Virus record (IMG/VR): IMGVR_UViG_3300047560_000283
Location: 1-46,336 of that record
From: a virus
Length of the DNA: 46,336 nucleotides
Direction: 5' to 3' (one strand)
Shown here in pieces: positions 3,742 to 37,420 of the stretch. Below the pieces are notes generated by a model that made no database searches, was not told the DNA's origin, and saw only the letters and a program-made list of their open reading frames with translations. How positions within the stretch are numbered: position 1 is the stretch's first letter; the number at the start of each line of letters is the position of its first letter. The position numbers and the translations under genes are program-made.

Positions 3742-4355
3742 TTGTATTCTATTACGTAATTTTTAAACAAGCGGCGTGTATATACGCTAAACTTAGGGTA
3801 GTCAATATTGTCAATTATTTTAAAATTTTCAATTAAGTCATTTATCTTAACAGAAAACAGTTTAAACATACAGTTTGGATCATTATATTCAGTAATTACA
3901 AAGTCCATGTCTGTATCACCGTCCCAGACAACATTTCTTTTTTTAACCTTAAACGCTAACTCTTTTGTTCCATTAAATTCTTCAGATAGTTCAATCTTTA
4001 ATGTTTTATCAACAGAATTATATGTTAAGTAAATGTCGGGATTTTTGGAATCAGCATATTGTATTGAAGTTATTCTATGTAAGATATCATCAATTTTGTT
4101 TAAATTCTTAACCTCGGCAATCTCTAAGGTATTCGAATTAATGTCAACTAGGCAATTATGTATATGGAGTTCTGCAGATAAAATAGATTCTGCAACTTCA
4201 GCATCTATAGATATTTTATTCTTCTCTTGTTCAAAGGCATTCTTAGGTCCTACACTTTTTACTACACCAGTTATAGGATCAAACACGGCAACATATTCAA
4301 CAACCACAGGGGTATAATTTTTTACCCATTCGTCAAAGTCGATTACTTCTTCCAT
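3738..4355 (-). CDS. Hypothetical protein of the modification cassette
   Basis: A 205-aa protein that I do not recognise. It begins MEEVIDFDEWVKNY and is rich in acidic and beta-branched residues. The middle looks like alternating beta strands (VAVFDPITGVVKSVG, IYLTYNSVDKTLKIEL, ELAFKVKKRNVVWDG). There is no signal peptide, transmembrane segment or recognisable catalytic motif. It lies between two pairs of glycosyltransferase-like genes, overlaps its upstream neighbour by 13 bases and its downstream neighbour by 4, and has a GGAAG ribosome binding site inside the upstream gene. It is therefore almost certainly co-expressed with the transferases. It could be a beta-sandwich structural or binding protein. 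Confidence 0.6.
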   Translation of the reverse strand: MEEVIDFDEWVKNYTPVVVEYVAVFDPITGVVKSVGPKNAFEQEKNKISIDAEVAESILSAELHIHNCLVDINSNTLEIAEVKNLNKIDDILHRITSIQYADSKNPDIYLTYNSVDKTLKIELSEEFNGTKELAFKVKKRNVVWDGDTDMDFVITEYNDPNCMFKLFSVKINDLIENFKIIDNIDYPKFSVYTRRLFKNYVIEYK

Positions 4356-9118: not shown

Positions 9119-9140
9119 TGATCAACTCCGTTATAACTGT

Positions 9141-9147
9141 TATTTAT
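9141..9147 (-). promoter_or_regulatory. T4-type late promoter element
   Basis: The minus strand reads GATAAATAAC, a close match to the T4 late -10 element TATAAATA. With the T4 spacing, transcription would begin near 9135, about 17 nt before the ATG of the 584-aa fibre. Confidence 0.6.
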
Positions 9148-9162
9148 CGTAAATTCCATAAT

Positions 9163-10974: not shown

Positions 10975-10988
10975 TTTTCGCTCCCTAC

Positions 10989-10997
10989 ATATTTACT
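10989..10997 (-). promoter_or_regulatory. Weak T4-type late promoter element
   Basis: The minus strand reads AGTAAATAT, which keeps the TAAATA core. A start near 10984 would leave a leader of only about 10 nt that just includes the GGGAG site of the 603-aa fibre gene. It is weaker than the other elements, and its position just after the stop of the 612-aa gene is suggestive. Confidence 0.4.
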
Positions 10998-10999
10998 CA

Positions 11000-12838
11000 T
11001 TAACTTACAAACGCCCAAGCGTTGCTAATAATTTGGAATGTCTTAACTGTTCTCGAAATTGACAACCCAGGCGCTGCAATAGTTGCAGTCGAGAAGCTAA
11101 TGTTATTCAGTCCAAATGCAGTACCTGTTGGGGTTACAAATTCTGTAGAACCTGTAGTTACCAACGGATTAATATCTAAATTAGTTGTACCGTTAACTGC
11201 AAAAGAACATAATATACGTGCAATTGTTCCATTCCTGTACTCAGTTACTGGTGCTATTTGTTCCAGTAAAGCTGAGATACCAGAGTTAGCAATACCGTCC
11301 GATATATCCATGCTAAACACAAGGCTTCGAGTTTCAGCAATACGGTCTACATATTCCTTTGTTGCTGCATCCTGATCGATAGTAGGGTCTGCAACATTGG
11401 AAATTTTCTTTGAATTTAAATTTAACGTTCCTGTGCCATTAATGTCTAATGTTAAATCAGTGTTAGATGCTGTAACCTGAATCGTTGCATCATTAAAATA
11501 TAAATCATCAACAGTTAATTGTGTTTGAGCACCAAAGGATGTTACGCCCGGGATACTAGTAATACTTGCACCCAATGCTGTAGCAGACAAAACTGTTACG
11601 CCATTGATTTTAAATTCTTTACCGCTTGCTAAACTAATATGCTCTGTGCTGTTCCAAGCCCCACTAAACAGTTCCGGTAATGCATCGCTGTAACCATCGG
11701 CTATTGCTCCGGACGATGCGGCCTGTGATGGCTGATTAACGTCACTCCACAATAAAGCATGGCTAGAAGCTCCTTGCAATATTACTCCGCCGCCAGCTGC
11801 ATTAGCGTCAGTAGGTGTTACATCGGTTTGTTTTGCTAAAATAATATTTTTATCTTCAACAGTCATTACACTTGTATTGACTGTTACTACATCACCATTG
11901 ACTGTAAGATTACCTTCAATGACCATGTTTCCGCCAACTTGCACCTCACTTGTAGGATAGTCTTTATAGATGTTTACTATTCTACCAGCAGATTCAATTT
12001 CTATAGCAGGTTCAGCAATAACGTCACGTCTAACGTTGAGCGTCATGTTCTTGTTAGAAGCAATGTTAGCAATAATTACATTACCGTCTTGTACCTGGAA
12101 CTGGCCCTGGTTTGCATCACCAATAATCAAACCCAAGTTTGAAGAAATAATAATCTGTCCGTTAATAATGTTTGAAGTATCATTACGAACATATGAACTT
12201 GCTGATTGGTTTCCTAATTTATCAGCATTAGACGCAGTTACGTTAAACTTAATTCCAGTTAAAGTTCCTGCATTAAATCCAGGCTCGATATTTCCGCTAA
12301 AACCATCAATTGCTAATTTTGGAGTAAAGCTATCTTTGGCAAATATACCTAACAAAATTCCGTTAGTGTACAAATATGTAACAACACGATTCTGGTTTAG
12401 AGTGTCTAGAATATTTGAAACTCTTAAACCGCTAACACCCTGGCTTACTGAATAGTCCGGTCCTAATAAAATTGTATTGGTACCATCATAAAAATATAAT
12501 TGCTTATCAATGTCGTTAAACCACAAATCGCCAACACCTAATGTTGTAGGTCTTACGCCAGAGATAGTAGCAGAACTAACAGGTACAAATCCTGTTCCGT
12601 TATAAACTTTCAATTTTAATTCAGTAACATCAAACCAAATTTGTCCTCTTATTGGATGAACCGGTGCTGTTGAACTAGAAAAGTTCTCAAGCATCTTAAT
12701 TAGGTTCTCATTTAAAGATTCGCCAAATCCACTATAGTTTTTTCCGATTAACGTTAAATCACTAGACAACGTATCAATTTGTCCGTCTGCAACTGTAGCT
12801 AGAATTGTTCCATCAGTTTTATTAATTGTATATGCCAT
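11000..12838 (-). CDS. Tail fibre protein (fibre paralogue 2)
   Basis: A 612-aa fibre with the shared N-terminal module (YTINKTDGTILATVADG, GFGESLNENLIKMLENFSS, GQIWFDVTELKLKVYNG, VGDLWFNDIDKQLYFYDG, LLGPDYS). The middle has repeated beta segments (NMVIEGNLTVNGDVVTVNTS, VEDKNIILAK). A KISNVADPTIDQDAATKEYVD segment follows, a repeat seen in many phage fibres just before the receptor-facing tip. The last 110 residues form a unique beta-rich tip with no collar or G2-like domain. Only 11 bases separate it from the preceding fibre and no late promoter fits in the gap, so it is probably co-transcribed. The ribosome binding site is AAGG. Confidence 0.8.
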   Translation of the reverse strand: MAYTINKTDGTILATVADGQIDTLSSDLTLIGKNYSGFGESLNENLIKMLENFSSSTAPVHPIRGQIWFDVTELKLKVYNGTGFVPVSSATISGVRPTTLGVGDLWFNDIDKQLYFYDGTNTILLGPDYSVSQGVSGLRVSNILDTLNQNRVVTYLYTNGILLGIFAKDSFTPKLAIDGFSGNIEPGFNAGTLTGIKFNVTASNADKLGNQSASSYVRNDTSNIINGQIIISSNLGLIIGDANQGQFQVQDGNVIIANIASNKNMTLNVRRDVIAEPAIEIESAGRIVNIYKDYPTSEVQVGGNMVIEGNLTVNGDVVTVNTSVMTVEDKNIILAKQTDVTPTDANAAGGGVILQGASSHALLWSDVNQPSQAASSGAIADGYSDALPELFSGAWNSTEHISLASGKEFKINGVTVLSATALGASITSIPGVTSFGAQTQLTVDDLYFNDATIQVTASNTDLTLDINGTGTLNLNSKKISNVADPTIDQDAATKEYVDRIAETRSLVFSMDISDGIANSGISALLEQIAPVTEYRNGTIARILCSFAVNGTTNLDINPLVTTGSTEFVTPTGTAFGLNNISFSTATIAAPGLSISRTVKTFQIISNAWAFVS

Positions 12839-12849
12839 GTGTTTTTACC

Positions 12850-14922
12850 TTAGAATGCTGCTGGACCAGAACGAATGATATAATTTAATGTTAGGAACGG
12901 ATTCATAACAGAAAATTGTTGTCCCAAGCTGCCTGCTGTTTTAATACCACCGCTAGAAGGAATGTACTGACTTTGGCCAACTGTTGTAGGACCTTTATCA
13001 GACAACGAACCTGTATCAATAGGAATTGCACTATCTACTCTAGTTGCATAATATTGCTGGCCAGTTGACCCTTTCATGCTATGTTCGTGTTCTGGTAGAT
13101 TAGAAACCGTTAACGAGTTAGCGCTTTGGCCGCCACCGTCTCCTAGGTTGTCAGGAGCTGTACCCGATACCCTATCAACGTTGCCGCCACCTGCGTCTAC
13201 ATAACCCCCAGTTGAGTTTGGAACAGTAACTCCGTTGTCCATGTTATCTCTACCAAGCGGAAAACGCCCTCTTAGGTCCGGTAATCGGAATGTGTTAACA
13301 CCAACTAAAGGTGTTGATCCGTTGTATGTTGTGCCGATAATGTCATACAGGTCACTATATTTTGTTCTTTCAACTTCGCTGCCATCACACAATAGATAAC
13401 CGTAAGGGATTTCTGTTCCTGCATACGGTAAAATTCCTCCCATAGGAACTCCAAGATCACCAACAAATACGTTTCTTGACTCTTTTAATAAACCTTCAGA
13501 TCCTCTATAAACTAATACATAGTCCGTAGGCTTCGAAACATTCGGCGATGGTTCACTCTTACTACTGATAAGTCCGGAAGTTAAAGAAGTTGTAAACGTC
13601 TTAGTTGTTCCGCCAACTTGTCCGTCAAAGTTAACATTAGGTGATGTAACATCACCTTCCATTTTAAATGTCGTAACAAATTTTAAATTAGTTGCTGTAG
13701 AAGCGTTACCAACAATATTACCTGTTAAAACACCTTCAATTGTTTCAGCAACTAATGTTTTTGTTCTTACAGTATTCCATCGTTTAACAACGGTTCCCAA
13801 ATCATAAGCATCGGTAGTAGACGGTTGAACGTTATCAAGTTCGGTGGTGCCCATTGCTTTAAATCCGTCACCGACTAATAAATTCTTTGCAATTGCTGCA
13901 CCGCCGGCAGTTCTAAAAGTACCGTTATTGAAGTTAGTACTCATTGTTGTATCTGTTAATATCAATGAGCCGTTAGTCTTAATATTTCCGTCAATGTGCA
14001 ATGCTTCGTCCGGACTTGCTACATTAATTCCGACTGTGTTGTTGATTACTCGCAACACAGTTGACGGAATTCCGTCCTTGTTAATTTGCAAATCAATGCT
14101 ACTACCTGGATTAGAGTTATAAATCTTTGCTGCGGTATCACTATTTGTAACACTAAATGTTCCATCAACACCAATAGTAATACCCTGATTATTTCTTACG
14201 TTAATACCGTACTCAGTAGTATTAACAACATCCGATCTTAAAAATTTACTTGCTGCAATTTCTACATCCGAAACAATTAATGATTCAGCTGCTGTTGCTG
14301 TACCCCAAATCTTAGTAGCTGCGCCGCTTGCAGCAACATCGTTGGAAGTAATGTTTAAACCGGATTTAATTGTTACAAATCCAGTAATTGATATCTTTGG
14401 AGTAAACTCATCTTTACTAAAAATAATTACAGGTACATCTTCTACGTAGAAAATCAAAACTACTCTCGAAACGTTATCCGAGTCTATAACTGCTTCAACA
14501 ATTGGACCGCTTCGTAAACCTGTACTAAATTGCGGACCTACTAAAATCCAACGTGTGCCCGAATAAACATAAAGCTGTTGGTTAGTTGTATCAACCCACA
14601 ATTCGCCAACCGCCGACGATGCTGTAGGAGGTTCAACGCCGCCCTTTTGAATATTAGAAGCTGCCTTCCAGGTTGTGCTGTCCCACAACTTTAGAACACC
14701 GTCGCTAGTGTCAAACCACAACTGTCCTTCGACCGGATTAACCGGAGCCGTTTCTTTAGCAAAATTTTCTAACAATGCTAGAAAGTTTTCAGCAATTGTT
14801 TGCCCATATCCTGTAACGTTACGCCCAGGAAAGGTTAAACTAGTGTCAGTACTAGAGGTGTTGTCATAAACTGTAATTGGCAGTTTATTTTCTTTATCTG
14901 TAAAATTAACAATGTATGGCAT
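12850..14922 (-). CDS. Tail fibre protein with C-terminal collar domain (fibre paralogue 1)
   Basis: A 690-aa fibre. It begins with the module shared by all four fibres (PYIVNFTDKENKLPITVYDN, GYGQTIAENFLALLENFAK, GQLWFDTSDGVLKLWDS, GELWVDTTNQQLYVYSG, LVGPQ). A beta-repeat shaft follows. From about residue 490 there is a phage tail collar domain: GVPMGGILPYAG, PYGYLLCDGSEV, YNGSTPLVGVNTFRLPDLRGRFPLG, then LPEHEHSMKG and a final NPFLTLNYIIRSG. The DLRGRFPLG and HEHS motifs are hallmarks of the collar family, which forms knobs on short tail fibres such as T4 gp12. Its likely role is receptor contact or irreversible adsorption. It starts 3 bases after the 209-aa gene, with an AGAGG ribosome binding site. 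Confidence 0.88.
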   Translation of the reverse strand: MPYIVNFTDKENKLPITVYDNTSSTDTSLTFPGRNVTGYGQTIAENFLALLENFAKETAPVNPVEGQLWFDTSDGVLKLWDSTTWKAASNIQKGGVEPPTASSAVGELWVDTTNQQLYVYSGTRWILVGPQFSTGLRSGPIVEAVIDSDNVSRVVLIFYVEDVPVIIFSKDEFTPKISITGFVTIKSGLNITSNDVAASGAATKIWGTATAAESLIVSDVEIAASKFLRSDVVNTTEYGINVRNNQGITIGVDGTFSVTNSDTAAKIYNSNPGSSIDLQINKDGIPSTVLRVINNTVGINVASPDEALHIDGNIKTNGSLILTDTTMSTNFNNGTFRTAGGAAIAKNLLVGDGFKAMGTTELDNVQPSTTDAYDLGTVVKRWNTVRTKTLVAETIEGVLTGNIVGNASTATNLKFVTTFKMEGDVTSPNVNFDGQVGGTTKTFTTSLTSGLISSKSEPSPNVSKPTDYVLVYRGSEGLLKESRNVFVGDLGVPMGGILPYAGTEIPYGYLLCDGSEVERTKYSDLYDIIGTTYNGSTPLVGVNTFRLPDLRGRFPLGRDNMDNGVTVPNSTGGYVDAGGGNVDRVSGTAPDNLGDGGGQSANSLTVSNLPEHEHSMKGSTGQQYYATRVDSAIPIDTGSLSDKGPTTVGQSQYIPSSGGIKTAGSLGQQFSVMNPFLTLNYIIRSGPAAF

Positions 14923-15564: not shown

Positions 15565-15574
15565 GTATTTATTC
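15565..15574 (-). promoter_or_regulatory. T4-type late promoter element
   Basis: The minus strand reads GAATAAATAC, identical over ten bases to the element in front of the gp48 gene. The TAA stop codon of the giant 4565-aa gene lies inside it. The predicted start near 15560 supports the ATG at 15543 for the next gene. Confidence 0.65.
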
Positions 15575-18500
15575 GGGCAATTCTGTACTCTTAATTGCTA
15601 TGAAATCCGCTACCGGAGTAGTGTTAGATAGCAATGTGATGCCTTTGCTAGCAGTATTCTGCCCTCTTTCGTACCAAATTCTACCTTGTTTTCTAATAAT
15701 AGTAATTCTAGTCCCCGCAGCAACTACATTAGTTAATTTTACGTAAGCAGAAACACCGTCAACTGCAAATTCTGCTTCGATCGTAGTGTCTGCTGCTGGA
15801 CTACTTACACCGTTAGCTTCGATGTAAACATCTACAGGGTTCTTATTCAAACGCTTGCCGCCAACAAATACTTCAATTTCATCACAAGGACCGTATTCGC
15901 TGGTAATTGTTTCTCTATACCACTCTGTTCTAGAACCTTGAGACGGTACAAAATCTAACGGACCTATTAGCGTAGAAACACCGTCACTTGTAAAGTCTGT
16001 GCGATCTTGTGTCTCTAGATACGGTAATGTTTCTGTAAATCCTGCATCAACAACAAAACTGTTGATTGAATGTTTTTCAGCAATAGCTGTGCCTAAGCAT
16101 CCCCTTCTTAACTGAGATAGCACATTGCCGACCTTAGAAAAATACTCAATCCTTTCTTTGTTAATAACAATTACTCCAGGAATATTTCTAGTAGGCAACG
16201 GTGTAGGCAACCCACTTGCATCTGTTAGTTCTACAGTTGTGTCGTAGTAGTATAAATCTTTTGCCAATTTAACAGAATTCTTTCTAGAATGTCTCTTATA
16301 ATGATAGTTGTTCAACATGTCTTTGAATATTTCAAAGGCCTTTGGTGGTTCGTAAACAATATTTCCAAATTGAACAATCTTAACTTCGTCTGCTGTGGTT
16401 GATAAGTCTGTTAGATATACCACGCCTCTTGGTAAAGAGATCGAATAATCTCTATCTCGTGTTAATCTAGTACCATTTTTGTAAACCCAGATGTAATTTA
16501 CATCTAATGGATTTCTTGGTAATTGATATTGCACCTTTCCGCCAGTGTATTGTTCAGAAATAATATCCATTGTAGGATATTCACTAAACCAAGTAACGCT
16601 TATTAAATCTCCGATATTTAATACTAAACTATCAGCAAGCACAATATTTCCATCAACGATAGAATATTGTGTTCGTGTATCAGTTTCAATACGTATTACG
16701 TCCTCTATTGTTAGATTAGCGGCAGGGATCTCGATTAAGTTTTCATTACCGTTATAGGTATAATCGATAACAAATCGTTGTAATACACCATTAATGTATA
16801 CTTTAATAGCTCCCGAAGTAATAGTACCAATAGCCTCTGCTGGATCTACACCTACTTCAAGTGCATTATTAGTTCCGTCATACACAACATATGTTGTGTC
16901 AACGCCTTGTAATTGTACACCATTTACTTCTACCAAGATAGAAGATAATACAGACGACCTCGATAGTGACACAAATTTATCTAGGTCAATATTTCTATTA
17001 CCGTCATAGGTATTGGTTTGTTGATTAATTCTAATAAACGGCACGCCAGTAGAATCTGTTTCTGTACTCGAACCAAAACAAATAATCTTAACTACCTGTC
17101 TATATGCAGGTGCTTGACCAAACTGTATCAATGTCCTGTCAACGGTGTCGGTATATTCACTACTGTTAACAAATCCTGTTGGGATTTCTTCACCGTCGAC
17201 TGTGACTAATACCGCTGCTGTTTGAGAATAAACTGCTTTTGTTAAGAACAGGCTAGTAGACCCATCGGCTACAAACTCCTGATAGTCAATTAACGAAATA
17301 CCACCGATGCCTATAGAAATAATTTCAACTATGGTTCCGATAGTAGGTGCTGTTTCAAACTCAACAGTGTTGTCAATAAAATTAATATTATATTCAACAC
17401 CGATATCTTGTTTGACTTTGTCAATGTACACCATTACTGATGTAGATTCTAAAACAGTTAACCCGATATTATATACCTTAGTCTCACCATCTCCTATTAC
17501 AACTTTAGCCTGCAATGGAGTAGACCCCGGGCTTGTTGAGGTGTAAACTTTTAGACTTAAACTGTCTAATACCTGTCCTGGAAGATTCTCTTCTGGTGCT
17601 GGTACTTGATCGGGGCTAACAAACTTGTCTCCGTCTATTACAATTTCTTCAGGTGTTAACCCAGTTGCTGTAACATACGCATTGTTAATGTTAGCCAGTG
17701 TTCCGCCACTAATTCTAGTATCTAGTAAGTTAATATCTGTAATAGTTACTGACCCGTCACTCTCAATATTACGGAAAATTAATGTATCATCTGCATTTAC
17801 ATGCACGTATGCTTCATCTGTGTCAGGATTGTGTAGTTGTACAATATTTGTAGAACCGTCTCCAACAAACGACGGCATTAATGCGTCATTATTTTTTTGA
17901 TCAATTGTTCCAAATTTAGGATCGTCAATTCGTGTTGCTTTTGTTTCGCCAACACGCTTTAAGTAGATAGAAATAACTTGATCTTCTGCCGGAGTATTTG
18001 GTAATACTACATATGTTGTGCTTCCGTCAGCAATATAATAGTAATCACTATTGCTTTCAACGCTGTCCCAGTTGTCAGTAAACCAAGGAAGGGCGTCCCA
18101 TCCGCCTGTAACATCGAATGTTGTTCCTTGTACCTGAACACCACCGAAGTCAATACCAGTCATTAGTTGACCGATTTCTTTTCCTTTCATTCCTGCAGTG
18201 GGGGCATAATATTTGCTAATTCTGTTTACAGCATCTAAGTATTCATCATTTTTGTCATATTCAATAACAATAATGTCTCCGTTCTTAGGAGCACTTAAGA
18301 ATCTTAACTTTCCTTTTAATAAAGTATATCCGCTTGTTGCATCACTATACAAATCAATCTCGTATTCATTCTTTAGAATAATTTCGTCATTCTTAAATAC
18401 TCGAATTTTTGTCTTATCTCTAGTAGGAGCATAGTTTAAATTAAACACCGCACTATAACCAGTTGCAGTAAACTCTTGAGTTTGTGAAAACTCTTGATAC

Positions 18501-21500
18501 TCACCGGACTTACTGAGTCTATCAAATTTCATAGACACATCAAAAGTTCTAACAGCAGTATCGCCCATAACTGCTGCTGCCTTAGCAATGCTTTGAGAAG
18601 TTCCGTTGCCGCCAACTAGTGTAACCTTAGGAATTTGTGTATAACCAGATCCTGGGTTATCAACCCTAATGCCCGATACTTTCCCGCTAGAAATAAATGC
18701 AGTAGCAGTAGCACCTGTACCGTTTCCTTCAATTAATACTTGTGGCGGATGTGTATAGTCTGCACCAGCATAAGATACATTAATTGTAGTAATAGAATAA
18801 CCGTTATTATCTGTCCACCATTTCCAAGGATATTCATTTAATCTGTTATAATCTTGTCCTACTGGTAAAATTTTTCCGTCTCTTACCGAGTATGCAGGAG
18901 GTAAATCAAAGTCAACAGTTCCGCTATAATAGCTTTCATTTTCTGTATATCGACTTGTGTATTCACGAATGGTTGTTCTATAAGGCTTTACTTCTTCAAT
19001 GTAACGTCTAAAACTTTCTAGATTGTCATTTTTATAGTTTGGACGTTGATCCAAATCTCCAACATTATGTACAGCATTTAAGAAGCTTGTTTTAAACGCC
19101 CAGTCAACATATTGTTGTTCAGAGAACGCATATCTTACTGAACTAAAGAATAACTTATTCCATTCAACTCGTAGATCATCGATAAAGATATTTTCTTTTG
19201 CTGCTTTTAAAATGTTTCGCAGTTCTTTAATAGGTTGTAAATCATACAATGCAGCATCATAGTAACCAACGTTATCGTATCCTAGTGCTGTTGTTACTGC
19301 GTTATAGAGAGAATCTTTAATTGTAATGGTGCCGTTTTGTCTACCAACTAAATTATAATTTGACAATAAATTACCTGCACCGTCTGCTGTTCTCTCTAAT
19401 ACTGCCCACCCACCATTAGAATATTCCTTAACTCGTAATAACATACCAGTTTCTAAAATAACTGTAGGTTCCTGATAAAAATTATCAATTTCTTTGGTTA
19501 TTCTAGACTGGGATGTAAATCCGGTAGCCCACCAATCAGTGTATTCCCAATAAGCAGTGGTGTCATATCCTTGTGCTTTACTACGATAGAAAATCTTACG
19601 TTGCTGATCCCAGGAATAGATACTCCATAATCCTTTATCACTAATGTCGTTGTTAACCAATACAGAGAACGGTCTAATCTTAACTAATCCGCTAGTATAT
19701 TTTTTACCACGATTTGTTACAGTAATAGAAGAAACTCTACCCTGTGTATCTAATGTAATAGATGCTTTAGCACCCTTACCCGTACCTTGTATTGAAACAT
19801 ATGGTGCTGTTCTATACCCAAAGCCTGGCTCAACAATATCAATTGTATCTATTTCGCCGTTAATGATATTCACAGAAAACTCTGCTTGTTTTATTTTAAC
19901 AGTACCAACTTGTTCCAAGTCGACATAATTCTCTACCTGCAAATCGTATTCGTTCAGCAATGCGCTAGGAGCAACATCCTTTGCTGATAAGTTTTCAAAA
20001 TTAATAGTATCAACAAATGGTCTAGATGCTAATATTGTGTTAATATTATCGATGACAATTTTTAAAGCCTTAGACTTATCAACAAACATTGTTTGTCTCG
20101 GTCTAAATCCTAAACCGTAACGTTGCTTTAATGGTAAGTTAAAATCAGGAACAGTGTTTCCTGCTTCGTCAAAGCCGACTAAACTATCAATCCATTTCTT
20201 CTCTAAGAACTCAGAAGGAATATTATCTGCAACGCCTTCAGTTAATAATTGATATTCTCTGTGTACTGGATTTGTTTCTTTCAAATCTTTATGATACTCA
20301 ATATTCACAGATACAGTATCGCTGCTAATAACTGAAGCAAAATTATAAAATGCTAGTTTGTCAGAATCGACTAATGCAACAAACGGAATTCCTGTGCCAA
20401 CTGGATTAGAAATGTAAGATGCAATTGACGAGATAGAAACACGTCTATCTTTATTTGCAGGAATTGTTGTTTTATTTTTGACCCAGAAATAGTAGAGCGT
20501 ACTAGTTGTAGCACCAGTTGTTGGATTGTATAATACTTTTGTGTTATAAACAGTATCGTCGGCAAACTTAGGTTGTCCACTGATGCCTTCTGCAAGTCCA
20601 GGAACAGTGTCTGCTAATATACTCCATTCAGATGGCAGCAACGGAGACTCTACCCATTCGTAAACATCAATAGAGGATCCTTCTACTTGGGAGCTCCAGT
20701 TACCAACTCTATATGATAGATCGCCTTGCTCAGAATTTAAAAACTTAGCAGAACTTAAATCCCACCATACTTCACCTATGTGATTTTCAAACCATGCTTG
20801 ACTTTCATCAACTGTTTGTTCTTCAGTAGCAGTGATATATGTCGCTGGATCATATAGCGTTTTAAATTTAATATCTTGTTCTGCAACACTTAGTAGCTTT
20901 AATTTAAAGTGGTCCACTACATCGATGTCTGCAACCTTGATATTTTTCTGTGTGTTGTAAACTTCAATGTTCTTTAGGGCGTCCAGATCAACTTGCTCAG
21001 TTTGAGTTCTAATTGTATTAATGCTGTTCTTATTAGCTGTTTTCTTAAACAATCTAATTTTTCCAATCTCGTCAGTCTCGTCTTTTGCTATGTAGTTTGG
21101 CGAACCTACAACTATTACAGAATTGGTGCAATCAATAGAAGCACCGAACGATTCATAACTATATGTGTTTTCAATATCTGCAACATTTGGTTGGAGTTTT
21201 TCTGCTAAGAAATACCCTAGGTCCTTTCTTTCATAGACGTATACTTGTCCCGGGAATCCTGTTGGATTAAAGAACGTAGTTCTTCTTCTATCAAAAGTTG
21301 TTCCGTCGGTAAATGTATACGGACGATTGTATGCAGCATTTTTAGCACCTACTACAATTCGTTCTGTTGCTGCGCTAATAGATACGCTTGATCCAAAATA
21401 TTCATTTGTGTAATTTTCATAACTCTGAATCTTTTGTGCTAACCTAAACTCAGTGGCTCCTGTAGCACGTTTAAACACGTATACAGCGCCTTGATTTTGT

Positions 21501-24500
21501 CGAAGTATATCTGCGGTAGGGCTGCTAACAACTAACGTTGTTCCAGACGCATCAATATCAATAGCCGTTCCAAAGTTATCACCGGACTCAATAGTTCCTA
21601 AAGTTCCAATATCGTTGATAGAATCAAGTGACTGGTTTGTAATTGTTTGTGTTAGGACATAGATGCCGTTGGCGTTTCTTTGGTAGATGAATACCTTACC
21701 AGTTGTAGCATAGGAATCAGTTCCTTCCGATGTCCACGGTGCTCCGGCAATCGGATCTTCGTTAATACTAGTTGCTGAATCTAATGTGTAATACGAATTA
21801 TTAAATCTAACAACATCACCTTCGAGATATTCTTGATAGGTATTCCATAGTCCTTTGTAGTTAGCAATATACCTGCCGTCACTGCTTGGCGCTCCTACTA
21901 CTAGGATGCTAGCGTCTCTAGACATAATTAGGCTATAACCAAAGTTGTCGCCGTCTTTGACTAATTCTGCCAATTGTGTTGGATCCAATAACCCAACGGC
22001 CAGTGTAGAACCGTCATCTTCTACTGCAACATTAGATGGTAATGAATTTTCTGTAGTAATTGGATCTAATTGTAACCAATCTTCGGAGTCAACAGTTAAT
22101 GTACTTCCATCGCCTTGTGTATCAACTTGCGCTTGCCATAAACTGCCATCTGCCCAAACAATACTACCTGCAGGATATACAGATGCAGAATCGTTATTAT
22201 AGACTCCATAATAATTTGGATTCTCATAATGAGTCCAGGTTGTTCCATTGTAGTAATATAGGTATACTCTACCTTTACCTGTGCTATATCCAATTGACGG
22301 GTCGCATAATGATCCGATTGCAGAAATAGCCATGTAATAAGTCTTACCACTAACACCGATCGTAACCGCACTTCCGAATCGTTCGTCGGTTGCTTGATGA
22401 GGACTTACAATGTTGTAAGCAATTTCCCACTGATCGTTTGCATATGTATACAATGACACCATGCCCTGATTTACAAAACCTGTACCACGGCTTGATGTGT
22501 TTCCTTCAACCAACGTTGCTGGCTCCCAGTCTTGTGAGTTGAAATTAATAGAGCTTCCGTCAGACGGTGCTGTATTGTTTTTAGCTTTCCATAGCTTTCC
22601 GTTATAAAGAACAATTTCACCTGCAAGATAACTTCTTGTAGTTAATTCTCCCATGTATTGATTAGGAACAGCAGTAGCCGTTGGCGATGCAACTGCAAGC
22701 CATTTGTAATCCGGGCTAACTGATAATACTTCTCCAAATACTCCATTTACCGCATCTTCAAAGCCATCTGGTGCTGCAATAATCTGTTTCAACCCAAGTG
22801 CCTGGTTAACACTTGTCTGGTCGGTATATATCATTACATAACTAGAGCCAGGAATTGATGTTGCTATTTGTTTAAGATTTTCAATATAAACAACTGATGT
22901 ACCAGTGTGTAATGGTGTGGTAATTCCGTATTCGTCAGACGCTAGTTCGTAAGTTTGGTATTGTTTGATCTTTTCAACTACTTCCCAATTTCCGTTTTCA
23001 TTTGCATCAACCCAAACTTTAGAACCAGTTTGTAGCAACGCTGTAGTCTGATAGTCTAATTCCTGGAAGGTATCTGCCCTTGCTTCTGTAAAAATACCGA
23101 TTACAGCAGAAGTACTATCTTCAATTGCAGGAGTATCGCCTGTAGATGTAACAACTATAACGGTATTATCAACTGAGGTTATTTTATAGAAACCTGTTAA
23201 ATTGTAAACTTTAGTGATGCCGATAATATCGCCCACTGCAAAATTGTGAGTTCTATTTAAATTAATAGTAACATTGTTTCCAGTTTTGCTTACTGACACA
23301 ATTCGTAACGATAGAGTTTCGTTATATCGTAATACTGTCCATTTATAAGAATCAAATGTTACCCAGAAATGGTCGTTTTCATTTACTGTTAAAATGTCAA
23401 TATCTAAAATATCATCTCGTGTTTTAACAACAAATTCAACATCATCGAGATGTACATATCCTGCAGATCTCGATGCTCCATCAAACATTACAACCGGATT
23501 GATATTAGTTGTAAAGGTTGATGGTTTAATTGAAAACTTAGTTGGGTCTATTCTTAAATTTTGATCAGAAACTATAGAACTTTGAGATTCAACAATTATT
23601 GCAGGTTGTGGATTTACCTGGAGAGAATTTTTAGAAATTTCAAATTCAATTTCTGTTAATTGATCTGCTCCACCGAACTCTCCAACTTTAAATGCCCACT
23701 CTTCGTTTAAAACAACACCGTCGTCACTGGTTTTGCTAATCTTGTCAAACACTTTTGTAATAGCATTATTTGTACCTTTTTCTCTGATGAATCCCTGATA
23801 CAATCTAAATTGAGTAATTTCGTCTTCGGCTAATCCTTGCAAATATTCTCTTGGTTGGTATCCAATTGCGTGTCTAGCTAAATCGCGTTGGCTCGATCCA
23901 ACACCATCCGAGTCAACTTCGTAATAATCTTCAAACTGATTAATTCTATAATCAAAGTTTGCTAGCAGACCTTTGGTAGGTGTAGAATCTAACTTAGTCC
24001 AGAATGTATCATCAAATGACTCTGTTCCTAGTTGATTTTGTTTACTGGTCCAATAGTAGCTCTTATAGGCAACAATGTCTCCTAGTCTATAATCCGTGAA
24101 AGGTTGCCACGCTTGTATATTAACATTATCAAACATGAAACCAGGACTTGTGTAATCGCCATCCCAATCAACTGTACGGAATCCACGACTCTTGATACGC
24201 TCCTGGCGGTATCCTGTTGGCTTATCATAAATTACATCGTTGAATACTGTTCTGTCATCAAAAATAACAACGTGTTCTTTAAGAACAAAGTTTGCTCTTA
24301 CAAAATAAATTCCGCGATTTGTATTAATTGTAGATAATGCTAGTGTCTTGTAATCTCTACTTGCTTCGATAAATTCAGGTCGTAACGGTGTACCGTCGTC
24401 TTGTAAAATTTGATAATCATAAAAACTATCAAGGAAATTATCTGCAACGCCCAGCGATACTTGTATCTCAACTTTCTGCGAATTTGGGCTCAATGTTAAT

Positions 24501-27500
24501 AATGAACCATCACTCCAATTGTGTTTTGTCCAGAACATAAATTCTTTTACAGATGTAAACCAATCGTATGTGGATTGTGTTGTTGGATCGTATCCTTCAA
24601 AAACAAAACCAATGCTGAGTAGATATTCCTGATACCCTAACATAAAGTCTACAACTTCTTGAATGTTAGTTACCAAGGTACCATAATTTAATCTATATGT
24701 TCGTAACTTGTTAAAGTTCTTTCTTCTATATGCAGTAACGGCATTTGTAACTGGTAGGGAAGGTAATTTTTTCCATAGAGTAGAATCAAAGTCTTCACCG
24801 CTTGTGTGACTCTTTACGCTTCTATAATAATCCTGACCGTTCTTTACTACAACTCCGTTGCCATAGAATTTATCTGCGGTCCAGATTAGGAAATTCTCAC
24901 TTACTCCGCCTACAGAAATTAACGGATCTGTTTGGCTTATTACAGGCTTATAGTATGTAAAGTACGGATCTTTGCTGTCATAGCCTGTGATTTTCCAACC
25001 CTGGCTAGTCTTTTCAATAATTACACCGCTATATGCTAAAGAATAGATAGGAGAACTTACATTAAAAATAATGTTATAGTTTTCTTGAGGGACAAAGATA
25101 CTACTTGTCTTAGACTTTGGATTCTTACTATCCAACACATATTTTTGTTGTGCTTGGTCAACAAACCCTGCTAATCTATTTGATAGATTAACGTCAATGC
25201 CCGACAGTTTATTCTTTAATGTGTCTACTGATAGAGTCTTGCTCTTTAAATAGTTTACAACATACGACACTAATCCAGATACTGAGCTAGAATCATAAAC
25301 TAAATCATCAAGTGTGAAGAATGTTTTAGAATTCTTATTAACAGTCTGACCTAAAATATTTAAAGTTGTTTCTGACTTGTTAAAATTGTCTGTAATAAAT
25401 TCAAGAGGTTTTAGCAAACAAAGAGCTATAGTTACAGCAAATGGCCATTCAGATCCAGAGCGCCACGCAGCTTCAACAGGTCCTTGATCTCCTAATACAA
25501 ACGGTCCTTTATTGTTAATTAACGTGAAGTTTCCTGCAAGGCCAGCATCAAGTGGGCTCCTTAGATTGCCGTCTTCGTCTACTGGAATATGTTGTATAAT
25601 TGTCGGGCGTTGATATCTCTTGTAAACACCAGCACGTGATCCTTGACGAACTATACCGTCGCGAAGATCTTCCCAAAGAATTAAATTATTACTAGTGTAC
25701 GGTGCAGGACCATATTCGCTTTCCCACCAGGTTGGCTTTTCACTAAATCCCAACATCTCCCATGGACATTGGTGTGGGCGGTCAGTGTCATAAAACCACT
25801 TGTAAACGCCTCTCCAATATCCTGGCAAGTTTTGATTCCCTGTAGGATCAACCATGTTAGAATAGGTATAGGTAAAACTATTTTGACTATCAAAGAATGT
25901 ATTGTTAACGTAATCGATATTGGTATCGGCAATCCATTTTAAAAATTCAGGTGCAACAATATCATCAACAACATTCTTTTTATATTCAGCATTTCCGTAA
26001 TATCCACCGAGTACATGATCATTATTAAAAATGTTTTCGTCGTACTGTTGCTTGATGTTGTTATAAATTCTCTTTTCTAATTCTAATAAAACATCATCAC
26101 GGAAGTCACCGTAGGCAACTGTAATACTACCATCGTGGCCTTGGATAACTTCCTTCGGATCAACGTAAGTTGTATCCAGGAATTTCATAGGTGTATATTT
26201 TCTGTATAATCCTAATTTTGTAGGCGTAGGAGGAATAAAGTTTGCCGATGAAGAAACATATTCTCTAATACGAATTGTGTCACCTTCTGATAACGTAATT
26301 GTTAATTTAACAAAACCAAATGTAGAATTAAATTCGTAGTCTTTACCATTTAATAATTGTTCGTCATTATAATAAACATACACCGCTCTAGAACTAATAG
26401 TTTCTAGATCAAATTTTTCACTTAATGCAAATGTCTTGATGCCCTCGTCTTCGACAGTATAGTTTAATTCTGTATATGCACCACTGCCAATCATGTCAGA
26501 GTCAGCAAATGGGCGAGACGAATTTTGTGTCTTACTAATTTCTTCTAAAATAACATCAACATAATCAATGCTATTTTGATCATAATATAAATTGTAGGCT
26601 AAGTTAATGAACGTATTTTTAAAATCTGTGTAGGCTTTTTTAGCATACTGAATAGACTTAACGATGTTAACTTCCTTATCGCATAATAAAACTGTAGCGA
26701 TAGGTGCTACATTACTGTGTTTTAAGAAACGCTTAGACTTATTTTCATATCCAGAGATATCTCTTAGATTGCTTGTGCCTGGATAAATGCCAGAAAAGTT
26801 ATCAACTAGTTCAATCCCAGTTAATACGTGGTCAGCAGCTTGCCCTAGAGTAAACGATTTAATTTTTTCGTTTAACGGATTCTTTTCTAGTCCTAATGGC
26901 ATTTCATAATAGCCAGTTAATGGATCTAGATCAGCAAACAATTTAATAGCAACTACATCATTGGCTGCAAAATTACTGCTGAATGTAAACACGCCGTCTA
27001 CTCTTGTCCAAGTTTTTCTAGTAATAGTGCCGTTGACATAGAACAAGATTTTTCTGATTTGATCATCTGTTATAGATTTCCAATCAACTGCGGTTGATGT
27101 GATCACGTTTGTAGCTGTATCAATTACTACAGTATCAATAATCGGCTGTGTTAACGTATTGTCTAAAACTTTCCAACCATTATCGTAAGTTTCAATTCCG
27201 TTGAACTTATAGAATCCAGTATAGATATTTCTTTCATAGACTGATTGTGCAATTTTGTAATTAAACAAATCTACGTCTAAATCAAATTCAAATTGAATGT
27301 CGCCGACGTTATTAATGTTTAGGTAAGATAAACTAAATCCCAATTCTGTATCTACAACACTAGATCCAATCTTATAGCTTACAATTTCTGTACCCACAAA
27401 CGAACTTACAGGATATGTATCAGCATCAGAAAAACTTACACCGTTCTCATCATAGATGTCAAACATCGGTGCTTGATTAACTTTTGTTTTAGTTTGGCTC

Positions 27501-29266
27501 TTAATCCAGTTTGTACCATTAAAGTGGTACATAAGTCCCTTGTTGTTATTGCCTCTTCTAACTAATACACATTCTCCCAACAACGAATCTCCGTCGTCGG
27601 CTTTTTGTAAATTAATTTGTGTAACATTATTATGTTTGATAAACTTAACTACATAGATCTGGTTGTTTGCTAACGAGTCAGTGTCTGCTGTAACTAGGAC
27701 TCGGGCACCGTCAAATAAGTTTTCTCCGTCAACAATGTATCCTTTGCTACCTTCAATAACTGAAAATATATCAGTAGTAAAATCGTCTACATAATCAACT
27801 GTTTGTTTTGCGGTTCCGCCGTGATTAAACAACTGTAGGTTTGGCTTAAATTCAATAATAGGGCGCTTTGCTCTCGATGTCTCAAGTGCTTCAAAATTAG
27901 AACCATTAAATGTGTGCGAATAATCTAGAGTAGATCTATGGAACCAACGGTTATAACGACTCCAAGGATTTGAGTCGATACTAGATTTTGAAACAGTAAT
28001 ATAATCCTTAGAAGACGGATATGTTGTAGCATCGTCGTAAGGCTGGCTATCAAATCCACCGTTATCAAATAATACTTCCGGGGCACTTGTGTTTAGGTTT
28101 TCAGATACAATTAAGTCTGTAAACTTAGTCAAGGTTATTTGTGTACCTACGCCTTCAACTAACCACTTATCGTTGTTGTTAGAATATTTTGCAGGTGATA
28201 CTGAGCCAATAAAATAAATTAGCATACCATTAGACAACTCAACTCCGTTGCTGCTGGTATATGTGGTCTTGCCTACAATTTCATTTTCTACATTGATTTT
28301 TGTATTTGTTTCGATGTTAGCAATTATGAATCGTCCGAATCTATTTGGATCTGTTGAGCTCTGATAAAATAAAACATCCGGAGCGTCGAATGGTACTTCG
28401 AATGTAATAGTACCACTTTCTATGCCATTGTTGGTAACACCTTTATTGTAGTCTAACGCTGTAGTCATTTGAACATCGTCGACGTATTCCCAATCCTGAC
28501 TATCAAGGTCAATAGTGCTGCCGTCACCGCCCGTAACGTCAACTAACGCCGTCCATAGCTTGCCATCAAATACAACTAATTGCCCCTTTGTATATGGCAA
28601 CAACGGATCGTACAGCAATGTACCAGTATCAATTGTTGTTTTAAATGTAACACCGTTGCCTGGAGCATTTACAATGAACTTGTATGTTTGCCCTCTATAT
28701 AAGGTTAGTGTAGGATTGTTTGTTAAGCCGTCGGGGGTGAATAAAAATACACTACCGATGCCTAGGCCAATTCTATAGGTACTAACAATATTCTGCGCCT
28801 GTCCTAGAATTTTAACTCCGGGAGGACCGTCTGGAATCCAGTAATATTCTCTATAGTTTACAAACTTATCCCAATCAATAGGTGGGTTCCAAGAATAATG
28901 CTCTTGTTCTGTAATTGTAGAATCAAACTCTTCCTTGTTGCCAAAGAATTTAATTTGATTCTTAAAGTCTAGATAATCATAAAAATTTGTTATTGTGTTG
29001 TCTTGTTTAACAACAACGCCCGGCTCTAATTGATAACGACTTCTTAAAGTTTCGTCGGTATCTAAATAAACGTCACTAGCATTGTATGTTTTTCCATAAC
29101 GGCGACCAACGTATCCTACAGTTTTTTGTAGTACGCCCGGTTGCACTAATGGATCAACAACTGCCGATAAGAACTTTTTATTTGCCTCAGTTTGGAAAAC
29201 CTGAGGTAATAATTCTACAGTTCTTCTAATCGGTAATTGACTATCTGGAAAAAATTCTTGTGCCAT
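15569..29266 (-). CDS. Giant baseplate wedge protein (gp7 position), with beta-propeller and CBM-like modules
   Basis: A 4565-aa open frame occupying 30 percent of the window. It lies directly after gp6, where T4 has gp7 (about 1030 aa), so it is probably the wedge scaffold; gp7 homology is positional. Residues 2170-2745 hold repeated FG-GAP-type blades (DERFGSAVTIG, DNFGYSLIMSRDASILVVGAP, GDNFGTAIDIDASGTTLVVSSP, EYFGSSVSISAATERIVVGA), as in integrin-type beta-propellers. At least six segments resemble CBM5/12 modules, near residues 222-266, 1458-1503, 1717-1762, 2205-2248, 2358-2398 and 2472-2515; examples are KGQLVVFDGKLWTA and AGEIVLYNGKLWKA. Paired GxGYTxxPxVxIxGxGxGA repeats lie near 3129-3200 and 3490-3566. 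The last 950 residues contain fibre-like DGxT...VxVxG repeats. It starts 1 base after gp6 with no clear ribosome binding site, suggesting translational coupling. Confidence 0.85.
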   Translation of the reverse strand: MAQEFFPDSQLPIRRTVELLPQVFQTEANKKFLSAVVDPLVQPGVLQKTVGYVGRRYGKTYNASDVYLDTDETLRSRYQLEPGVVVKQDNTITNFYDYLDFKNQIKFFGNKEEFDSTITEQEHYSWNPPIDWDKFVNYREYYWIPDGPPGVKILGQAQNIVSTYRIGLGIGSVFLFTPDGLTNNPTLTLYRGQTYKFIVNAPGNGVTFKTTIDTGTLLYDPLLPYTKGQLVVFDGKLWTALVDVTGGDGSTIDLDSQDWEYVDDVQMTTALDYNKGVTNNGIESGTITFEVPFDAPDVLFYQSSTDPNRFGRFIIANIETNTKINVENEIVGKTTYTSSNGVELSNGMLIYFIGSVSPAKYSNNNDKWLVEGVGTQITLTKFTDLIVSENLNTSAPEVLFDNGGFDSQPYDDATTYPSSKDYITVSKSSIDSNPWSRYNRWFHRSTLDYSHTFNGSNFEALETSRAKRPIIEFKPNLQLFNHGGTAKQTVDYVDDFTTDIFSVIEGSKGYIVDGENLFDGARVLVTADTDSLANNQIYVVKFIKHNNVTQINLQKADDGDSLLGECVLVRRGNNNKGLMYHFNGTNWIKSQTKTKVNQAPMFDIYDENGVSFSDADTYPVSSFVGTEIVSYKIGSSVVDTELGFSLSYLNINNVGDIQFEFDLDVDLFNYKIAQSVYERNIYTGFYKFNGIETYDNGWKVLDNTLTQPIIDTVVIDTATNVITSTAVDWKSITDDQIRKILFYVNGTITRKTWTRVDGVFTFSSNFAANDVVAIKLFADLDPLTGYYEMPLGLEKNPLNEKIKSFTLGQAADHVLTGIELVDNFSGIYPGTSNLRDISGYENKSKRFLKHSNVAPIATVLLCDKEVNIVKSIQYAKKAYTDFKNTFINLAYNLYYDQNSIDYVDVILEEISKTQNSSRPFADSDMIGSGAYTELNYTVEDEGIKTFALSEKFDLETISSRAVYVYYNDEQLLNGKDYEFNSTFGFVKLTITLSEGDTIRIREYVSSSANFIPPTPTKLGLYRKYTPMKFLDTTYVDPKEVIQGHDGSITVAYGDFRDDVLLELEKRIYNNIKQQYDENIFNNDHVLGGYYGNAEYKKNVVDDIVAPEFLKWIADTNIDYVNNTFFDSQNSFTYTYSNMVDPTGNQNLPGYWRGVYKWFYDTDRPHQCPWEMLGFSEKPTWWESEYGPAPYTSNNLILWEDLRDGIVRQGSRAGVYKRYQRPTIIQHIPVDEDGNLRSPLDAGLAGNFTLINNKGPFVLGDQGPVEAAWRSGSEWPFAVTIALCLLKPLEFITDNFNKSETTLNILGQTVNKNSKTFFTLDDLVYDSSSVSGLVSYVVNYLKSKTLSVDTLKNKLSGIDVNLSNRLAGFVDQAQQKYVLDSKNPKSKTSSIFVPQENYNIIFNVSSPIYSLAYSGVIIEKTSQGWKITGYDSKDPYFTYYKPVISQTDPLISVGGVSENFLIWTADKFYGNGVVVKNGQDYYRSVKSHTSGEDFDSTLWKKLPSLPVTNAVTAYRRKNFNKLRTYRLNYGTLVTNIQEVVDFMLGYQEYLLSIGFVFEGYDPTTQSTYDWFTSVKEFMFWTKHNWSDGSLLTLSPNSQKVEIQVSLGVADNFLDSFYDYQILQDDGTPLRPEFIEASRDYKTLALSTINTNRGIYFVRANFVLKEHVVIFDDRTVFNDVIYDKPTGYRQERIKSRGFRTVDWDGDYTSPGFMFDNVNIQAWQPFTDYRLGDIVAYKSYYWTSKQNQLGTESFDDTFWTKLDSTPTKGLLANFDYRINQFEDYYEVDSDGVGSSQRDLARHAIGYQPREYLQGLAEDEITQFRLYQGFIREKGTNNAITKVFDKISKTSDDGVVLNEEWAFKVGEFGGADQLTEIEFEISKNSLQVNPQPAIIVESQSSIVSDQNLRIDPTKFSIKPSTFTTNINPVVMFDGASRSAGYVHLDDVEFVVKTRDDILDIDILTVNENDHFWVTFDSYKWTVLRYNETLSLRIVSVSKTGNNVTINLNRTHNFAVGDIIGITKVYNLTGFYKITSVDNTVIVVTSTGDTPAIEDSTSAVIGIFTEARADTFQELDYQTTALLQTGSKVWVDANENGNWEVVEKIKQYQTYELASDEYGITTPLHTGTSVVYIENLKQIATSIPGSSYVMIYTDQTSVNQALGLKQIIAAPDGFEDAVNGVFGEVLSVSPDYKWLAVASPTATAVPNQYMGELTTRSYLAGEIVLYNGKLWKAKNNTAPSDGSSINFNSQDWEPATLVEGNTSSRGTGFVNQGMVSLYTYANDQWEIAYNIVSPHQATDERFGSAVTIGVSGKTYYMAISAIGSLCDPSIGYSTGKGRVYLYYYNGTTWTHYENPNYYGVYNNDSASVYPAGSIVWADGSLWQAQVDTQGDGSTLTVDSEDWLQLDPITTENSLPSNVAVEDDGSTLAVGLLDPTQLAELVKDGDNFGYSLIMSRDASILVVGAPSSDGRYIANYKGLWNTYQEYLEGDVVRFNNSYYTLDSATSINEDPIAGAPWTSEGTDSYATTGKVFIYQRNANGIYVLTQTITNQSLDSINDIGTLGTIESGDNFGTAIDIDASGTTLVVSSPTADILRQNQGAVYVFKRATGATEFRLAQKIQSYENYTNEYFGSSVSISAATERIVVGAKNAAYNRPYTFTDGTTFDRRRTTFFNPTGFPGQVYVYERKDLGYFLAEKLQPNVADIENTYSYESFGASIDCTNSVIVVGSPNYIAKDETDEIGKIRLFKKTANKNSINTIRTQTEQVDLDALKNIEVYNTQKNIKVADIDVVDHFKLKLLSVAEQDIKFKTLYDPATYITATEEQTVDESQAWFENHIGEVWWDLSSAKFLNSEQGDLSYRVGNWSSQVEGSSIDVYEWVESPLLPSEWSILADTVPGLAEGISGQPKFADDTVYNTKVLYNPTTGATTSTLYYFWVKNKTTIPANKDRRVSISSIASYISNPVGTGIPFVALVDSDKLAFYNFASVISSDTVSVNIEYHKDLKETNPVHREYQLLTEGVADNIPSEFLEKKWIDSLVGFDEAGNTVPDFNLPLKQRYGLGFRPRQTMFVDKSKALKIVIDNINTILASRPFVDTINFENLSAKDVAPSALLNEYDLQVENYVDLEQVGTVKIKQAEFSVNIINGEIDTIDIVEPGFGYRTAPYVSIQGTGKGAKASITLDTQGRVSSITVTNRGKKYTSGLVKIRPFSVLVNNDISDKGLWSIYSWDQQRKIFYRSKAQGYDTTAYWEYTDWWATGFTSQSRITKEIDNFYQEPTVILETGMLLRVKEYSNGGWAVLERTADGAGNLLSNYNLVGRQNGTITIKDSLYNAVTTALGYDNVGYYDAALYDLQPIKELRNILKAAKENIFIDDLRVEWNKLFFSSVRYAFSEQQYVDWAFKTSFLNAVHNVGDLDQRPNYKNDNLESFRRYIEEVKPYRTTIREYTSRYTENESYYSGTVDFDLPPAYSVRDGKILPVGQDYNRLNEYPWKWWTDNNGYSITTINVSYAGADYTHPPQVLIEGNGTGATATAFISSGKVSGIRVDNPGSGYTQIPKVTLVGGNGTSQSIAKAAAVMGDTAVRTFDVSMKFDRLSKSGEYQEFSQTQEFTATGYSAVFNLNYAPTRDKTKIRVFKNDEIILKNEYEIDLYSDATSGYTLLKGKLRFLSAPKNGDIIVIEYDKNDEYLDAVNRISKYYAPTAGMKGKEIGQLMTGIDFGGVQVQGTTFDVTGGWDALPWFTDNWDSVESNSDYYYIADGSTTYVVLPNTPAEDQVISIYLKRVGETKATRIDDPKFGTIDQKNNDALMPSFVGDGSTNIVQLHNPDTDEAYVHVNADDTLIFRNIESDGSVTITDINLLDTRISGGTLANINNAYVTATGLTPEEIVIDGDKFVSPDQVPAPEENLPGQVLDSLSLKVYTSTSPGSTPLQAKVVIGDGETKVYNIGLTVLESTSVMVYIDKVKQDIGVEYNINFIDNTVEFETAPTIGTIVEIISIGIGGISLIDYQEFVADGSTSLFLTKAVYSQTAAVLVTVDGEEIPTGFVNSSEYTDTVDRTLIQFGQAPAYRQVVKIICFGSSTETDSTGVPFIRINQQTNTYDGNRNIDLDKFVSLSRSSVLSSILVEVNGVQLQGVDTTYVVYDGTNNALEVGVDPAEAIGTITSGAIKVYINGVLQRFVIDYTYNGNENLIEIPAANLTIEDVIRIETDTRTQYSIVDGNIVLADSLVLNIGDLISVTWFSEYPTMDIISEQYTGGKVQYQLPRNPLDVNYIWVYKNGTRLTRDRDYSISLPRGVVYLTDLSTTADEVKIVQFGNIVYEPPKAFEIFKDMLNNYHYKRHSRKNSVKLAKDLYYYDTTVELTDASGLPTPLPTRNIPGVIVINKERIEYFSKVGNVLSQLRRGCLGTAIAEKHSINSFVVDAGFTETLPYLETQDRTDFTSDGVSTLIGPLDFVPSQGSRTEWYRETITSEYGPCDEIEVFVGGKRLNKNPVDVYIEANGVSSPAADTTIEAEFAVDGVSAYVKLTNVVAAGTRITIIRKQGRIWYERGQNTASKGITLLSNTTPVADFIAIKSTELPE

Positions 29267-32716: not shown

Positions 32717-33151
32717 TTACTTTATAATGTTGTTTTCTCTATCAAAGTCAAACATCATACGCTCATTGATATTAAATGGCAAATACGTAATGTCTGCTTG
32801 TATTCTAATTCCCATGTCTGTACTGTCAATTATTACACCGTTAATTGCAATCCTTGGGTCGTAGTTAATAATGGCTTCTACGTCATCTGTGATTAATTTC
32901 TTAACTTCTTCCGTAAAAGGTTCGAATAATAAATCCCAAATCACAGTACCGAAATCAGGATTCATTAGTTTTTCGCCTTTACGGATATAAAAGTGATTTA
33001 CAATATCTTGCTTTACTAAATCAATATCGTTTAATTTAAAAGAATTTTTAGTTTCTTTAGAACTAAATCCTTTGTAGGTAAAAGATCGTTGACTGTCATT
33101 AACGCTAGCCGTTAACGAAGATACTGATTTCTTGTTATAAATTCTTGCCAT
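32717..33151 (-). CDS. gp25: Baseplate wedge subunit gp25
   Basis: A 144-aa protein of the GPW/gp25 family, which links the wedge to the sheath in contractile tails; T4 gp25 is 132 aa. The diagnostic stretch is LVKQDIVNHFYIRKGEKLMNPDFGTVIWDLLFEPFTEE, containing the conserved KGEKLMNPDFG motif, followed by ITDDVEAIINYDPRI. An N-terminal extension of about 35 basic and Ser-rich residues (MARIYNKKSVSSLTASVND) precedes the family core. The ATG is 2 bases after the stop of the spike gene, with an AGGGA site inside it. Position between spike and gp6 agrees with the call. Confidence 0.93.
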   Translation of the reverse strand: MARIYNKKSVSSLTASVNDSQRSFTYKGFSSKETKNSFKLNDIDLVKQDIVNHFYIRKGEKLMNPDFGTVIWDLLFEPFTEEVKKLITDDVEAIINYDPRIAINGVIIDSTDMGIRIQADITYLPFNINERMMFDFDRENNIIK

Positions 33152-37120: not shown

Positions 37121-37420
37121 TTAGACTCCTATGTATTTTTCTAGGTTTGACTTTTTAGGACAATAGATAACCGTACCCGGTTGGAAATCAAATATAGGAT
37201 CTTTAAGAACACTCATGTTGCGTTGTACAAATACCCACCACAATTCAGAATTTCCATACAGGTCAAATGCTAACAAGTCTGGTCTATGCTTGTAATGTGT
37301 TTCAATAGTGTAGGCGTAATCGTCGGCTTCGGCTGGCACGGGACGAATCGACAATAATTCCAAATGGAGGTTGTTTTCTTTAGTGGTATAGTACGGGGAC
37401 GTTTTTTTATATCTAGCCAT
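37121..37420 (-). CDS. gp53: Baseplate wedge protein, gp53-like/LysM-like
   Basis: A 99-aa protein with YAYTIETHYKHRPDLLAFDLYGNSELWWVFVQRN followed by DPIFDFQPGTVIYCP. The pattern of a short helix-rich unit, YGNxxLWWV and PGTxIxxP is shared by gp53-type wedge proteins and LysM-like tail proteins. T4 gp53 (196 aa) has the comparable YGNPQLYWVL; this one is about half as long and keeps only that core. In T4, gp53 clamps neighbouring wedges together. The start codon overlaps the gp48 stop (TAATG), with a GGAG site inside gp48, so the two are translationally coupled. Confidence 0.72.
   Translation of the reverse strand: MARYKKTSPYYTTKENNLHLELLSIRPVPAEADDYAYTIETHYKHRPDLLAFDLYGNSELWWVFVQRNMSVLKDPIFDFQPGTVIYCPKKSNLEKYIGV

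Follow-up and report, generated by a model that had tools for sequence, protein, structure and literature searches.

In the phages that have been studied, one copy of the gp7-type wedge protein BW3 joins two of BW2 in a heterotrimer, and BW3 carries the receptor-binding proteins (PMC10811340). Giant size at the gp7 position is already known: gp7 of Prochlorococcus phage P-SSM2 ('baseplate wedge initiator'), encoded after gp25-gp6, reaches 5195 aa. Giants of the family phrog_10938 are encoded by PA5oct (gp355, 3857 aa, flagged ESI-MS/MS in its database record), Atu_ph07 (gp180, 4449 aa), 121Q (gp582, 3323 aa) and Vibrio 2.275.O (3771 aa), in each case next to a gp6-like gene. So far, annotation of the gp7-position giants of marine and jumbo phages has not gone beyond 'wedge initiator' or 'virion structural protein'. 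We describe a further giant, a conserved, modular baseplate protein in which small domains are nested within a propeller that is itself an insertion.

The window, i.e. the whole stretch of 46,336 nucleotides that was analysed, is a 46-kb fragment from IMG/VR. It contains a 13.7-kb frame on the minus strand, open throughout from the ATG at 29266 to the stop at 15569; the uninterrupted 4565-aa frame of the preliminary description is confirmed, with the strand now added. The giant and the structural genes around it are:

7364..14922, minus strand: four tandem fibre genes (690, 612, 603 and 584 aa; phrog_14394/15511) with a common N-terminal domain
15569..29266, minus strand: giant BW3/gp7-position baseplate protein of the phrog_10938 family, 4565 aa
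29268..32675, minus strand: gp6-like baseplate wedge protein (BW2), 1135 aa (phrog_10646, phrog_219)
32717..33151, minus strand: gp25-like wedge protein (BW1; phrog_261, phrog_43)
33154..34770, minus strand: hub/tail-lysozyme-like protein (phrog_13211)
37121..37420, minus strand: candidate gp53-type wedge subunit (phrog_7145, baseplate wedge subunit)

The start of the giant adjoins the end of the gp6-like gene, preceded by the phrog_7145, hub/lysozyme and gp25-like genes, and on its 3' side lie the genes for a 209-aa protein and the four fibres. As with T4 gp7 (BW3), the gene therefore lies between gp6 and the fibre genes, and the proposed location matching T4 gp7 holds: the giant directly follows gp25- and gp6-like genes, and its family supports the placement as well. 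The last two fibres (603 and 584 aa) also have a C-terminal domain in common. The fibre N-terminal domain is kept in 3-4 copies in all aquatic relatives searched, and no CBM unit was found in the window's own fibres. Late-sigma and SbcCD genes occupy the opposite strand within the window.

Two other elements were observed. A radical-SAM-like gene lies near the fibre cluster (window 331-1779, minus strand), and radical SAM genes are also found downstream of the giant in Atu_ph07. The Rfam Polynucleobacter-1 RNA (RF01718) was detected at window 43004-43147 on the plus strand (71.9 bits). Of 16 contigs from related phages, 11 have this RNA, whereas 14 control genomes all lack it; phages of this group thus appear to carry the RNA themselves.

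The profile of phrog_10938 matches the giant with 1091 bits (E reported as 0), which places it in this family, and the order gp25-gp6-giant is the same in the window, PA5oct, Atu_ph07 and 121Q. In IMG/VR, 338 stretches encode relatives; 41 of these have a closed giant frame, spanning 3825-4930 aa with 45-82% identity to the giant of the window. An assembly artefact is thereby ruled out. No near-identical phage DNA was found in GenBank, and the giant has no match in the PDB by sequence. Two giant frames end early, in the relatives L009 (4049 aa) and L068 (3825 aa), while their close relatives, L010 and L057/L049 respectively, are full length; the early ends may be either real truncations or assembly/frameshift errors.

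Homology to T4 gp7, which is 1032 aa long compared with 4565 aa here, was not detected by any of three approaches. The T4 gp7 Pfam domains (PF21427, PF21428 and PF21456) gave nothing significant against the giant or its sub-fragments, nor did profile-profile comparison using 21 gp7 sequences. Searching the PDB by fold with the AF2 model of residues 1-1200 retrieved no match with E<=0.001. A T4 gp7 homologue by sequence or fold was accordingly rejected. With no homology found in either sequence or predicted structure, the label 'gp7' is positional, and it is gene position and family membership that speak for a wedge role. Proteins of the gp7/BW3 wedge family contribute N-terminal helices to a bundle with two gp6 copies; in the same model the N-terminus of the giant is predicted with short helices (16-41) and a region of low confidence (43-120), which would fit, without proving it, a part of the chain whose folding requires its partners.

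Comparison with relatives divides the giant into a conserved scaffold and discrete modules:

28817..29266, minus strand: N-terminal conserved block, residues 1-150, with an LLP motif and predicted short helices (16-41 and 101-108)
28007..28816, minus strand: insert, residues 151-420, with weak fold matches to cupredoxins; in 121Q and Vibrio 2.275.O shrunk to about 11 aa
28484..28600, minus strand: CBM5/12-like unit 1, residues 223-261, inside the cupredoxin-like insert; L160 has the insert but not the unit
25307..26296, minus strand: most conserved scaffold core, residues 991-1320, 28-42% identical to five isolate phages
24764..24874, minus strand: CBM5/12-like unit 2, residues 1465-1501, common to PA5oct and Atu_ph07; neither 121Q nor Vibrio 2.275.O has it
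23990..24103, minus strand: CBM5/12-like unit 3, residues 1722-1759, a clean insertion of 50 residues that five isolate phages lack
21044..22891, minus strand: seven-bladed FG-GAP beta-propeller, residues 2126-2741 (PF14312, AF2, Foldseek)
22523..22636, minus strand: CBM5/12-like unit 4, residues 2211-2248, within blade B (2-3 loop); L160 lacks it
22067..22177, minus strand: CBM5/12-like unit 5, residues 2364-2400, in the 4-1 loop leading from blade C to blade D; L050, L056, L060 and L160 lack it
21731..21838, minus strand: CBM5/12-like unit 6, residues 2477-2512, within blade D (2-3 loop); L050 and L160 lack it
19676..19897, minus strand: GxGYT repeat pair 1, residues 3124-3197; a module also found in cyanophage gp7
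18587..18799, minus strand: GxGYT repeat pair 2, residues 3490-3560
15572..18484, minus strand: C-terminal fibre-like beta repeats, residues about 3595-4565, with weak similarity to the T7-fibre N-terminal domain (PF03906)

The slots for these modules vary in content and length while the scaffold stays conserved. Besides residues 1-150 and 991-1320, a scaffold block corresponds to residues 3350-3420. The propeller slot, for instance, comprises 641 aa here and 102-301 aa in 121Q, Vibrio 2.275.O, PA5oct and SCTP-2. The giant is a widespread conserved scaffold at the baseplate rim; its inserts are a propeller and six small domains that resemble sugar binders. Several modules had been anticipated from the open reading frame. 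The paired GxGYT repeats are present, at about 3148/3186 and 3501/3539; the C-terminal fibre-like series is weakly supported by profile, the match to PF03906 (E 1.8e-4) being below Pfam's cut-off, and a profile self-alignment of these repeats gave no match.

The propeller was detected by the FG-GAP_2 profile (PF14312; 56.6 bits, cut-off 23) and is predicted in the AF2 model of residues 2125-2765, built with 35 sequences (mean pLDDT 80.8, pTM 0.84), in which seven blades can be traced, with three strands predicted for the last. The blades originally placed at about 2170-2745 do form a propeller according to both profile and model, although it starts earlier, at about 2126. The solved structures that Foldseek ranked best were integrin alpha heads, with E 5.6e-10 and probability 1.0, but the TM-scores against them are low: among the matches listed, 0.2-0.36 query-normalised and at best 0.49 target-normalised. 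The inserts are probably the cause. Viral matches comprised FG-GAP phage proteins and a separate protein of Atu_ph07. As read from the sequence, none of the 1-2 loops has a visible DxDxDG calcium motif of the kind found in integrin-type FG-GAP repeats. No link between FG-GAP and phage baseplates was found in the literature searched. In four relatives (L034, L037, L083 and L016), the propeller region is enlarged to 759-879 residues by extra domains.

CBM_5_12 (PF02839) matches the whole giant with 35 bits (cut-off 26.2), and a model derived from the window's own units finds exactly six in the giant and none in 44 shuffled giants; the 'at least six' units of the preliminary description are exactly six. 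They belong to CBM5/12 by their conserved core, Y...G...[YW]...W, the aromatics of which are retained in 93-100% of cases across 42 sequences, and retention of the units at their sites is near-complete in the same set. Each unit is a discrete insertion, since empty sites were found among relatives for all six. 121Q and Vibrio 2.275.O have closed the slots of units 1 and 2, leaving 2-11 residues, and all five isolate phages lack unit 3 at one and the same junction. L160 has the same propeller, there at about 2150-2564, without units 4-6 and the cupredoxin-like domain without unit 1, and the propellers of L158-L160 carry no unit at all. Units have also been lost in the single lineages L050, L056 and L060 with flanks intact, and the L157-L160 clade has related units at other sites. 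The cupredoxin-like scaffold insert carrying unit 1 represents a second nested layout, which the earlier reading did not include.

Three units had been described as lying between propeller blades. The nesting is confirmed, complete with natural empty sites, but only unit 5 is located between blades (4-1 loop, C to D), whereas units 4 and 6 are inside a blade (2-3 loops of B and D). In the propeller fold, the 2-3 and 4-1 loops share one face. All inserts and most of the length variation fall into these loops, which reach up to 89 and 171 residues, respectively, among 35 sequences; in the same set all seven 1-2 loops are constant in length and the 3-4 loops vary little. Moreover, in each of the 41 relatives compared the scaffold is better conserved than the blades, and the propeller is among the fastest-diverging parts of the giant. 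Loop lengths and blade divergence together suggest that one face would be packed and the other exposed.

The alignments and the model establish a conserved scaffold, discrete insertions with empty sites, a predicted propeller and one-faced loop variation. The best explanation is that the giant, a scaffold with plugged-in domains, is probably the gp7-position (BW3) protein of the baseplate periphery in a T4-like giant phage from the relationship of PA5oct, 121Q and Atu_ph07. An old conserved scaffold would build the wedge and the rim beside the gp6-like protein, and its surface loops would accept a cupredoxin-like domain with one CBM5/12-like unit, two further units and a seven-bladed propeller bearing three units on one face. 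The 1-2/3-4 face may pack toward the scaffold and the 2-3/4-1 face look outward, where the inserted units could make weak multivalent contacts. We tentatively consider that the units contact the host surface (a glycan or another envelope component) as an accessory to the four fibres. A point on the other side is that the C-terminus of the 690-aa fibre is itself well conserved, so that host range could be set by this fibre or by another component.

Alternatively, the CBM5/12-like units could be devices for protein-protein docking or clamping rather than sugar binders, attaching fibres or tying neighbouring wedges together and so holding or positioning both; we regard this as possible, if doubtful. 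Among the matches to a profile built from all six are the N-terminal module of the Milano tailspike gp124 (8fqc), the tail fibres of phage 7-7-1 (9rkv) and the contractile-system protein All3316 (7b5h), a segment of the Milano tailspike module contacts BW3 (PMC10811340), and in A-1(L) a wedge insertion domain holds a fibre (PMC10966104). Furthermore, while the core aromatics are kept, units 1, 4, 5 and 6 have no conserved aromatic between the second and the last of them in the 42 sequences, and units 2 and 3 have F in that stretch. This stretch, the position not being aligned, is presumably where the chitin-binding Trp of ChiA1 sits. Against docking, the chitinases 2rts and 1ed7 are also among the best solved matches of the six-unit profile, and the units come and go with the scaffold unchanged. 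In addition, the fibre N-terminal domain occurs in 3-4 copies both with and without units 4-6; as it persists in L158-L160, these units are not needed to dock that domain. Weighing variable-face display, multivalency and gain and loss against the missing aromatics and the docking precedents, we favour accessory surface contact only slightly.

A stronger form of surface contact appears unlikely, namely that the baseplate wedge is a multivalent lectin, with a propeller per wedge presenting three units on one face and three more on the same chain. If true, each baseplate would hold dozens of weak glycan sites, swapped by domain insertion and acting before or together with the fibres. Less probable still is that the giant is the main built-in receptor-binding arm, with putative direct contact of surface glycans through its CBM-like units. 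Six carbohydrate-binding-like units, half of them on the variable face of a fast-diverging propeller, speak for it; however, four tandem fibre genes follow the giant, the isolates 121Q and PA5oct infect without the propeller and most units, and a conserved ligand aromatic is missing in four units. Of the receptor-binding arm first proposed, the variable one-faced display stands, and the missing aromatics, the Milano docking and the phage's own fibre genes weigh against the rest; such a putative role is plausible. That the inserted domains are neutral or bulk-adding passengers kept because loops tolerate them is very improbable: single-lineage losses with intact flanks and related units at other sites in the L157-L160 clade would agree with it, but not the constancy of the core aromatics and the near-complete retention at the sites.

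Because relatives that have a given insert and relatives that lack it occur in nature for every one of these domains, the part that serves assembly can be told apart from what decorates it, and the role of each domain is therefore testable by clean removal in culturable relatives; 121Q and PA5oct are culturable members of the family.

Among known systems, the phrog_10938 giants of jumbo phages are the closest, following a gp6-like gene and sharing 28-42% identity across core residues 1000-1300. Unlike the giant of the window, those of PA5oct, 121Q, Atu_ph07 and Vibrio 2.275.O have no propeller detected there, the slot of Atu_ph07 included, and have at most unit 2 in common with it. In Atu_ph07 an FG-GAP propeller is instead encoded in a separate 409-aa frame (NC_042013.1 243045-243311). 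P-SSM2 gp7 shares the GxGYT modules and one weak CBM-like unit, but has a YHYH domain and no FG-GAP match; colinear homology with cyanophage gp7 was rejected, as only the GxGYT modules align. T4 gp7 matches the giant neither by its Pfam domains nor by its profile. The Milano gp124 module is of the same CBM5/12-like family by profile and touches the wedge in the tail, but there the module is in the spike and the units are fewer, whereas in the window they reside in the wedge-position protein itself. Finally, the integrin alpha head is, by fold match, a seven-bladed FG-GAP propeller like that of the giant. Integrins carry their alpha-I domain as an insertion on the ligand face, where it separates blade 2 from blade 3. 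The integrin inserts are I domains, whereas those of the giant are CBM-like and accompany 1-2 loops devoid of visible DxDxDG. With a layout that recalls alpha-I insertion, the propeller is a one-faced mounting platform for small domains in a phage baseplate.
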